Translations under genes and position numbers: made by a program | Notes under the pieces: model-generated | The model's database searches: none | What the model saw: only the letters and a program-made list of their open reading frames with translations | What the model was told of the DNA's origin: nothing | Part shown: positions 17,501-64,000 of the stretch, piece by piece | Layout: every line of letters starts with the position of its first letter | How positions within the stretch are numbered: the stretch's first letter is position 1 | From: Gordonia sp. ABSL11-1 | Lineage (GTDB): Bacteria; Actinomycetota; Actinomycetes; Mycobacteriales; Mycobacteriaceae | Assembly: GCF_030315685.1 (NCBI RefSeq) | Contig: NZ_JASXSI010000003.1 | Span: 62,001 to 126,000 of the forward strand | Direction: 5' to 3' | Length of the DNA: 64,000 bases

Positions 17501-19687
17501 GAACTCGTCGCGCATGTCGCCGCGCGGCTCCCGCGCCACATGGTGCCGCACACCGTGGCGGTCGTCGACTCCTTCGACGTCACCTCTGTCGGCAAGATCG
17601 ACCGGACGGCGCTGCCCGCGGTCGACCTCACCGCCACCCGCGAGTTCGTCGCACCGCGGACCGAGATGGAGAGCGTGGTCGCCGACGTCTTCACACAGGT
17701 CCTCGACGTGGACCGGGTCAGCGTGCACGACGCGTTCTTCGATCTCGGCGGCAACTCGCTGTCCGCGACGAAGGCGGCCTCGCGCCTCGGGGCCGTGCTC
17801 GATCGGCGGGTACCTGTGAAGGACCTGTTCGAGCAGCCGACCGTCGCCGCATTCGCCGCGCACATCACGTCGACCATGACGGGCCGCGCGACGCCGCCGC
17901 TGACCGCCCGCAGCCGTGCGGAGCTGGTCCGGGTGTCCGGAGTGCAGCGGGGCATGTGGCTGCTCAATCGTGCCGACCCGGACTCGGCCAACTACAACGT
18001 CGCGCTGGCACTGCGGATGTCGGGGCACCTCGACGTCGAGGCCCTGCGGTCGGCGATCACCGACATCGTCGATCGCCACGAGGCGCTGCGTACCCGATAC
18101 CCGATGATCGACGGCGCGCCGACCCAGGTGATCCTCCCCATCGAGGAGGTCGTCGGGCATCTCGACCTCGAGATCGTCGATGTGACCGGAGAACTCGGAG
18201 ACGCCATCGCGGACGTCACGGGTGTCGGATTCGACGTCGTGGCCTCACCACCGATCCGGTTCGCGTTGCTGCGGGTGGCCGCAGACGATCACGTCCTGGT
18301 CTTCGTCGTCCATCATCTCAGTGCCGACGGCGCGTCGATGGCACCGCTCGCGCGAGATCTGATGGCGGCGTTCTCCGCCCGGCGCGGAGGAGCGTCACCA
18401 TCGTGGGAGCCGCTGCCCGTGCAGTACGCCGATTACGCGCTGTGGCAGCACGACCGGCTCTCCGAACCCGCCGGCGATGCCGGCGGCCATACGGGCACCG
18501 AGGAGGACCGGCAGCTGCGTTACTGGGCCGATCGACTGGCCGGTGCGCCCGCACAGGCCGATCTGCCATCCGACCGCCCGCGTCCGCTGACACCCACCTT
18601 CGGCGGCGCCGCCGTCGGGTTCGAGCTGCCTGCCGATCTGGTGTCGTCGCTGGAAACGCTGGCCCGTCAACACAATACGACGCTCTTCATGGTCACCCAC
18701 GCGGCATTCGCGGTGGTGCTGGCCCGGATCACGGGCAAGGACGACCTGGTCATCGGCACGCCCTACGCCGGACGCGTCGACGCCGCACTCGATCACGTCG
18801 TCGGGATGTTCGTCAACACTCTCGCTCTGCGTACGCAGGTCCCGGTCGCCGACCGCTTCTCCGACGTCCTGGAACGGGTTCGCACCGAGGACCTGATGGA
18901 CATGGCGCACGCCGACGTCGCCTTCGACCAGATCGTGGCGCGGGTGCTCCCGGCCGCGCCGACGTCGTACAACCCGCTGTTCCAGGTCATGTTCGCCTTC
19001 CAGAACATCGAGTTCCCCACGGTCGAACTCGACGGTCTGCAGATCGCCCCGGAGGACGAGAACCTGGCGGCGGCCAAGGTCGACCTGCAGTTGACGTTGT
19101 TCCCCGACGACCCCGCCGGAGACCGGGGCGACGGCCGGATGCGCGGTGAGTTCCTCTACGCCACCGACCTGTTCGACGAGACCACGGTCGACCGAATCGC
19201 ACAGTGGTACGTGCGGGTCCTGACCGCGGTCGCCGCCGATGCCATGTCGATCGTCGGCGACATCGCGCTCGACGACCCCGAGCAGGCGACGTCGACACCC
19301 GCCGATCGTGCTGCGGACGGCATGACCGCGGCGGCCCTGCCGGATCTCGTCGCGCAGGCCGCAGTCGTCGACCCCGCATCGACAGCCGTCGACCGCGACA
19401 CCTTCGTCCTGGCGTTCGGTGACCTCGACGCCATGCGGGTGGCGATGTCCGGCGCACTTCCCGACGGAGACCCGAACGCCGCCCTCACCATGGCCCTCAT
19501 GTCCGGCATCCCCGATCTCACCGCAGCCGGAGCCGACGCGCTCGAGGACGTCGTCCGACAGCTGCGAATCCGCGCGATCGAGACGATCGCCGGCGCCGAG
19601 GCGATCAGATGCGGAACCGGCGGAAGCGCCGGTCGAGCCGGGCCGGACGAGTCACTGTCGCCGACGGAAGGTGCCGATCGCGCGTGA
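11543..19687 (+). CDS. NRPS 1: C-A(Ser)-PCP-C-A-PCP-C
   Basis: A 2714-residue non-ribosomal peptide synthetase that starts the assembly line. Domain order: C1 (about 20-445, HHIAVDG at 152-158), A1 (about 475-970, TSGSTG at 615), PCP1 (Ser1016), C2 (HHIAADG at 1201), A2 (TSGSTG at 1691), PCP2 (Ser2072), C3 (HHLSADG at 2257), and a 117-residue tail from about 2598 that looks like the beginning of an A domain. C1-A1 resembles EntF of enterobactin synthetase in sequence detail, including AHYLDIQ and [18 protein letters not shown] 11543 was chosen because it puts the C domain near the N-terminus, as in EntF, and follows a purine-rich AGAGCGAGTGGA; an in-frame GTG at 11456 would add 29 unlike residues. 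The TGA overlaps the GTG of the next gene, so the two are made together. Cytoplasmic; the PCPs need a phosphopantetheinyl transferase encoded elsewhere. Confidence 0.96.
11600..14700 (+). other. NRPS module 1: EntF-like C, A for serine, PCP
   Basis: The first C domain has the active HHxxxDG motif and no upstream PCP in cis, so its donor must come from outside (an aryl- or acyl-carrier protein, or acyl-CoA). By-eye alignment with GrsA gives the A-domain code DVWHFSLVDK, identical to the serine code of EntF (Asp660, Val661, Trp664, His703 anchor it). The PCP motif is IGADSLTA with Ser1016. Inference: the product starts with an N-capped serine. Confidence 0.85.
14755..17875 (+). other. NRPS module 2: C-A-PCP, substrate unassigned
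   Basis: C2 has HHIAADG and the upstream [10 protein letters not shown] typical of LCL condensation domains. The A-domain code read by eye is DAFVIVLIWK, from SFDASIFE (Asp1736), THAVMTP, VISVGE and [13 protein letters not shown]. It matches no code I know but resembles those of modules 6 and 10. The A domain has the compact [17 protein letters not shown] core. PCP2 is intact (LGGNSLSA). Confidence 0.8.
17920..19300 (+). other. C domain of split module 3 (on NRPS 1)
   Basis: A complete C domain with HHLSADG (His2257) and the usual later motifs ([19 protein letters not shown]). Its cognate A and PCP are on the next protein, so module 3 is divided between two polypeptides. The upstream module lacks an E domain, so it should join two L-configured residues. 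Confidence 0.85.
19334..19687 (+). other. C-terminal tail of NRPS 1, A-domain-like fragment
   Basis: About 117 residues follow C3. They start [19 protein letters not shown] and look like the first 60 residues of an A domain, then end in acidic and helical sequence ([19 protein letters not shown]) and a G/A/E-rich tip. No A3-A10 motifs follow. A segment of similar plan opens the next protein, so the pair may act as docking parts or be relics of an A domain broken at the gene split. Confidence 0.6.

Positions 19688-64000: not shown

Follow-up and report, generated by a model that had tools for sequence, protein, structure and literature searches.

The stretch of DNA analysed here, the window, comprises 64,000 nucleotides of Gordonia sp. 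ABSL11-1 and corresponds to C46:62001-126000, C46 being a parent contig of 335,776 bases from a 5.70 Mb draft genome in 121 contigs. Positions past 64000 are given as window-equivalent positions, which continue the numbering of the window along the contig. Two adjacent genes for nonribosomal peptide synthetases (NRPSs), N1 and N2, are found in this region, and their features are collected in Table 1 together with those of the neighbouring genes.

Table 1. Features of the locus; numbers are window positions unless marked as contig (C46) or window-equivalent positions.
Feature	Position	Strand	Remarks
Gene N1	11456..19687	+	2,743 aa from GTG 11456; C(starter-like)-A-T-C-A-T-C and C-terminal tail
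N1 alternative start	internal ATG 11543	+	possible
N1 tail, tA (truncated-adenylation) domain	19325..19684	+	proposed C-terminal docking element
Gene N2	19684..64000, on to window-equivalent 74370 (C46:136370)	+	A-T-(C-A-T) x14, 4 E, terminal TE
N2 head, tA domain related to N1 tail	19684..20034	+	proposed N-terminal docking element
N2 A1-T1, line module 3 (C domain on N1)	20011..21789	+	own-domain HMMs
C-A2-T2, line module 4	21832..25095	+	own-domain HMMs
C-A3-T3-E, line module 5	25147..29742	+	own-domain HMMs
C-A4-T4, line module 6	29899..33060	+	own-domain HMMs
C-A5-T5-E, line module 7	33106..37731	+	own-domain HMMs
C-A6-T6, line module 8	37891..41148	+	own-domain HMMs
C-A7-T7, line module 9	41191..44373	+	own-domain HMMs
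C-A8-T8-E, line module 10	44413..48954	+	own-domain HMMs
C-A9-T9, line module 11	49108..52620	+	own-domain HMMs
C-A10-T10, line module 12	52660..55806	+	own-domain HMMs; A domain kind varies between species
C-A11-T11-E, line module 13	55852..60390	+	own-domain HMMs; A domain kind varies between species
C-A12-T12, line module 14	60547..63747	+	own-domain HMMs
C domain (start) of line module 15	63790..64000	+	modules 15-17 and TE past window, to window-equivalent 74370
MbtH-like gene downstream of N2	C46:136461-136694		PF03621
Three ABC exporter genes	C46:137261-140636	opposite	next to MbtH-like gene
N3 (2,680 aa) and N4 (8,300 aa), second line	C46:141103-174044 (window-equivalent 79103-112044)
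N5, third line	C46:188837-202633	opposite	4,598 aa, 4 modules, TE match

Read past the window on the parent contig, N2 measures 54,687 bp and encodes a protein of 18,228 aa (1.93 MDa). The initial annotation had described a frame that begins at GTG 19684, runs through to the end of the window and is still unfinished there, which is borne out by both the list of open reading frames and the contig: the stop lies 10.4 kb further on, with a thioesterase (TE) domain ahead of it. The list gives this frame as 19609..63999 (14,797 aa, open at the 3' end), beginning at an upstream in-frame ATG. GTG 19684 is the better candidate: the heads of homologous genes in relatives begin at this point, and the GTG overlaps the stop of N1 as GTGA. 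A random frame of this length at 70.5% G+C would be expected to contain about 338 stops, and the other five frames of the region hold between 46 and 426.

The domain order was obtained with HMMs built on the gene's own domains and cross-checked with Pfam on five pieces of N2. Pfam totals for N2 are 15 AMP-binding, 15 PP-binding, 18 Condensation (14 C and 4 E) and one Thioesterase, in agreement with the HMM order, and the E domains sit after A3, A5, A8 and A11. The 12 A-PCP (A-T) sets and four E domains first noticed in the window are recovered by both approaches, and the further C domain reported there is the twelfth of N2, cut by the window end. The GGxS motif is present in all 15 T domains, HHxxxD in all 14 C and all four E domains, and TSGSTG in all 15 A domains. 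N2 thus shows what is expected of a modular NRPS, with repeated C-A-T modules, a release domain and motifs that are intact in its A, T and C domains, and its 15 A-T modules in one uninterrupted frame reach the number (at least 15) that defines the kolossin class. The reading of N2 as a giant single-frame NRPS is therefore supported. In-frame tandem repeats with units of 15 and 21 nt are found at 50936-51269 inside A9, ahead of its TSGSTG motif, and in all ten tandem-repeat rows detected in 11000-64000 the unit is divisible by 3. In the A9 repeat region, one relative (G400) also gives two A hits and another (G250) is about 79 aa shorter.

N1 supplies two modules as well as the C domain that opens a third, which brings N1 and N2 together to 17 modules; its first T domain carries GADS in place of GGxS. 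Among solved structures in the PDB, the C domain that opens N1 is matched best by 7c1k, CDA peptide synthetase I, ObiF1 and EntF, which we take to be starter or first-module C domains, while the second C domain of N1, used as a control, is matched best by others, among them 5u89 and entries for PCP-C didomains. A C domain that appears to be of the starter type is thus present at the first module, as in lipopeptide NRPSs. An acylated start of the peptide would follow from these matches. No acyl-CoA ligase or acyl carrier was found among nine flanking proteins scanned, which are part of the flanking ORFs, and acylation is proposed from the type of C domain. Most A-domain specificity codes of the line appear to lie far from known codes.

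A frame of this size in a draft genome raises the question of whether modules of several genes have been joined or collapsed, the true gene being split or having another number of modules. The draft state of the source genome, with its many contigs, leaves room for such an artefact, and part of a published account describes how the draft of another NRPS gene missed a 22.2 kb section (PMC4554452). Within C46:73456-174044, which spans N1 to N4, exact repeats on the same strand stay below 60 nt, and repeat collapse is thus unlikely. The modules had been suspected of being near-identical, which is not the case, as pairs of A-domain DNA share at most 72% identity (median 56%). Furthermore, both GC3 (0.84-0.89) and constraint are even along the frame. 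The N2 thioesterase region was searched for in 401 family genomes, of which 283 matched at 1e-20, and five genomes of the same genus (G400, G250, G152, G380 and G305), with best matching pieces 68-88% identical, were examined as relatives. All five have 17 A domains in the same order and E domains in the same four places (one E domain of G380 is split by a break), and two of them, G152 and G305, are single-contig genomes. Since separately assembled relatives share the module order and no long exact repeats are present, it seems unlikely that a repeat was collapsed or is chimeric, or that a frameshift splits the gene, and an artefact of assembly is very improbable.

The giant frame is unbroken in G400 (18,331 aa when counted from the start that corresponds to that of N2) and in G250 (17,906 aa). 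It is broken once in G152 (16,465 and 1,770 aa) and in G305 (15,198 and 3,129 aa), and twice in G380 (5,919, 8,980 and 3,051 aa), where the N1 tail is broken too. The breaks lie inside domains and could reflect either sequencing error or real decay. In G400, N1 is cut at the contig end, which leaves its first C domain outside the data. With regard to selection, dN/dS of N2 is 0.21 against G400, the nearest relative, and 0.28 against G250. The ratio pN/pS lies between 0.16 and 0.36 in each of 18 thousand-codon blocks against G400, and between 0.32 and 0.58 per thousand codons against G250. These values indicate that N2 is under purifying selection. The broken frames of three relatives could be taken to mean that N2, albeit intact, is silent or translated chiefly as fragments, with no 1.93 MDa chain in the cell. 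This seems unlikely in the face of constraint along the entire N2 frame. Since the same giant line seems to be under purifying selection in several species, such chains would not be accidents. The frame, the domain order, the intact motifs and their conservation are all observed directly in the sequence.

The A domains of the five relatives best match the source A domain of the same position in 78 of 85 cases, all seven exceptions falling at line positions 12 and 13, and the specificity codes are identical across the six genomes at 10 of the 17 positions. The peak of pN/pS, at codons 11,001-14,000, coincides with the region of A domains that differ in kind. At positions 12 and 13 (52660-60390), the A domains differ in kind among species as if they had been exchanged. 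If A domains have been naturally exchanged at no more than two of the 17 positions, these would mark where the line tolerates re-programming.

Taken together, N1 and N2 most probably form one 17-module nonribosomal assembly line, with an acylated start, a third module joined through tA domains and release by the TE domain, a reading to which we assign a probability of about 0.8. The starter-like C domain of N1 would N-acylate the first residue, and two modules would follow it on this protein. Module 3 has its C domain at the end of N1 and its A and T domains at the beginning of N2, and the paired, related tA domains, one on each chain, may unite the two halves. If strict colinearity holds, the single N2 chain would then add residues 3-17, with D residues predicted at positions 5, 7, 10 and 13 from the E domains. 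The thioesterase domain of N2 would finally free a 17-residue acylpeptide, either free or cyclic. The greater part of a 17-residue peptide is thus expected to be made non-ribosomally by N2. Two separate lines could also be imagined, since the A-T at the opening of N2 is a possible loading module. N2 would then work alone from this C-less module and N1 would serve another enzyme such as N4, as the neighbouring N3/N4 pair has a tail and a head of like kind. However, N1/N2 and N3/N4 are each adjacent, with 4-nt start-stop overlaps (C46:81684-81687 and C46:149142-149145), and the terminal C domain of N1 requires a downstream A-T, which makes separate lines improbable.

The joint within module 3 is where the single line departs from familiar synthetases. 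The module is split between C on N1 and A on N2, with related truncated-adenylation pieces on both sides, and free-standing copies also occur. Profiles were built from 27 heads (nine of them weak, 30-57 bits), 29 tails and 26 free-standing proteins; the tail profile includes 11 sequences from short frames of 124-240 codons, which are free-standing proteins of the tail type. The three profiles match pairwise with about 98% probability over 85-94 columns. Against 113 A-domain N-termini, local alignment covers only 61-62 columns (heads 97.8%, free-standing 95.7%), and the global mode gives 98.1% for heads, 91.2% for free-standing forms and 87.9% for tails, the last compared in this mode only. The match of the head profile to A-domain N-termini is nearly equal to its match to the tail profile (scores of 75 versus 78 in local and 70.7 versus 73.5 in global mode), and the A-domain likeness of the head by itself appears strong. 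Because the joint alignment outruns the 61-62 A-like columns, the tA family can be read as an A-domain N-terminal piece with a helical half of its own.

AlphaFold models of the N2 head show the order H-E-E-H-H-H (pLDDT 75.5), and those of the N1 tail the same order with one more helix (pLDDT 86.1). In fold searches, the predicted tA fold weakly resembles adenylate-forming enzymes. Four tA sequences were scanned, namely a head, a tail and two free-standing proteins, and none of them scored above the cut-off of any Pfam or NCBIfam family. A full adenylation (ANL) core was rejected, as the N2 head covers positions 5-50 of the 384 of PF00501, below cut-off; an adenylation domain in the N1 tail was likewise rejected, no Pfam family having matched at E 1.

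In the samples from 151 family genomes, a head was matched in 42 genomes, a tail in 45 and a free-standing form in 20; ordinary A domains are included among the weak head and tail matches. By coordinates, two family genomes correspond to Williamsia maris (G120) and Jongsikchunia kroppenstedtii (G012). All three forms are present in each of ten Gordonia genomes, the source genome included; three free-standing matches in Gordonia (G117, G129 and G057) are interrupted by a stop. The free-standing profile matched at least 37 database proteins among the best 7,998 candidates scored, 12 of them named Williamsia, and no Pfam domains are found in these 37 listed matches. Heads scoring above 60 bits number 22, and each of them except the one in G078 is preceded on its own strand, at a distance of 38-185 nt, by a frame that carries a tail. 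These upstream frames have 2,684-2,967 codons in 20 of the 21 cases and 1,645 in G008.

On this pattern, the N1 tail and the N2 head may form a docking pair. A broader proposal, which we put forward tentatively and hold to be a little short of an even chance, is that tA domains constitute a family of NRPS docking domains that has not been described before. Built from an A-domain N-terminal piece and a helical half of their own, and related on both partners, they would stitch together a module whose C and A fall on separate genes, in Gordonia, Williamsia, Jongsikchunia and further members of the family. The free-standing copies would act as a third partner, by blocking, bridging or proof-reading the joint. 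It is also quite conceivable that the tA pieces are relics of an A-domain duplication at the gene split and do not dock, the halves meeting via C-A surface contacts or never. The resemblance of tA sequences to A-domain N-termini, which the predicted fold also shows weakly, would be expected of relics. On the other hand, relics would hardly account for 21 of 22 strong heads keeping a tail-bearing frame at so short a distance upstream, nor for an alignment of head, tail and free-standing forms that extends past the columns which heads and free-standing forms share with A domains. If tA docking is true, splitting a module between C and A would be a natural, evolved strategy for lines of more than 16 modules. 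The tA pair further suggests a new way of joining synthetase halves within a module, which could be of use in synthetase engineering.

Two free-standing tA small proteins are encoded near the synthetases, at window-equivalent 74877-75233 and 112598-112906 (C46:136877-137233 and C46:174598-174906), one shortly after each large TE-ended synthetase, N2 and N4. In other genera, a tail type and a mini type of free-standing tA protein are encoded near each other on the same strand, which would resemble a two-protein version of the pair; examples are 659-931 and 1465-1803 of L195 (from G016), and likewise L211, L212 and L215-L226.

Known classes of NRPS docking domains, as far as the published overview is drawn upon here, comprise COM, PAX and beta-hairpin domains and act at E/C or carrier/C junctions (PMC9113145). 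Like tA, these are short terminal elements on partner subunits. Unlike them, tA lies at a C | A junction inside one module, is A-domain-like and is related on both partners. A COM domain was rejected for this reason, the junction not being E/C between subunits, and a PAX domain was rejected by location, since it would require a carrier/C junction. With regard to structure, the PAX domain is a three-helix bundle to which both partners contribute, and the single-chain tA models contain a beta hairpin. The beta-hairpin docking domain, described in part of the same overview as alpha-beta-beta-alpha-alpha (PMC9113145), has an element order similar to that of the tA models. It is N-terminal and binds a short linear motif at a carrier/C junction, but tA lies at another junction and has a folded partner. 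No beta-hairpin docking entry was noticed among the 50 fold matches listed in each tA search, and a literature search found no A-domain-derived docking pieces.

N2 belongs to the size class of the kolossin synthetase, where the initial annotation had placed it. In the reviews considered, the 15-module kolossin synthetase, of 49.1 kbp, is called the largest continuous bacterial NRPS or the largest known NRPS (PMC9002308, PMC4685789). The kolossin A synthetase (kol, plu2670) of Photorhabdus luminescens is, like N2, one uninterrupted gene of 15 modules. Its product is given in print as a D/L peptide, which is also expected of the N1/N2 line. By its published description, the kolossin gene is exceeded in length by N2 (54.7 kbp), with an equal number of A-T modules, and N2 thus passes the length mark found in print for a single-chain bacterial NRPS. 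By the same description, the N1/N2 line differs in its second protein, its 17 modules and its starter-like first C domain. No bacterial NRPS larger than N2 came to light in searches of open-access papers. The giant frame of G400 is longer than N2, and other frames of 14.9-17.4 thousand codons occur in the family. Fungal NRPSs of similar size are known. Larger bacterial proteins of other kinds exist, according to part of one report (PMC11573180). N2 is therefore a longer example of an already known kind of enzyme, the unusual feature being the coupling joint.

Among related bacteria, the Ser/Thr-rich NRPS clusters #35 and #36 of Nocardia have 12-13 modules and, as here, many Ser-like A domains, in the part of their description used (PMC4035055). 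Putative lipopeptide clusters of Rhodococcus, also Ser/Thr-rich, are likewise large lines with many Ser-like A domains in the excerpts considered (PMC5550956). Compared with these, and by description in the case of #35 and #36, N1/N2 has a larger number of modules, and a single chain carries 15 of them. Relatives of the N2 thioesterase are found in Nocardia with 46-53% identity. The syringopeptin synthetases SypA-C of Pseudomonas syringae also form a very long line, of 22-25 modules, which the relevant part of the source distributes over three genes with 12 modules on sypC (PMC4554452), as against 15 on the single chain of N2.

N1 and N2 are part of a larger NRPS island. N3/N4 is a shorter line with nine A domains and a TE domain of its own, whose N-terminal architecture and joint are as in N1/N2. 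The island lies between rpsQ (S17, window 4027-4326) and rplN (L14, C46:203017), both named by NCBIfam and 137 kb apart, which we take to be the border of the S10 and spc operons. Of 59 Gordonia genomes, 57 yielded both genes, on a shared contig in 38 and on different contigs in 19; in each of the 38 the distance between them is 10.5-137 kb, with a median of 83 kb. Out of 113 tabulated genomes of other genera, the distance is below 1.5 kb in 49 and at least 10 kb in 33. These derive from a set of 122 genomes, nine of which were left out, since the genes either fall on separate contigs (G014, G019, G030, G059, G073, G087 and G094) or share one contig at a distance of more than 400 kb (G007 and G037); for genomes with two S17 matches (G078 and G646), the first listed was taken. 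N1-N2 lies between the two genes in G152, G250, G305 and G380, and in G400 N2 and rplN share a contig, with rpsQ on another. Two ribosomal-protein genes that are close together in many relatives make a curious home for a specialised-metabolite cluster. Ahead of N1, sensor-kinase-like ORFs are found at 5960-10741, with HATPase_c in two of the four scanned, and similar ORFs were seen by eye at C46:181133-183507.
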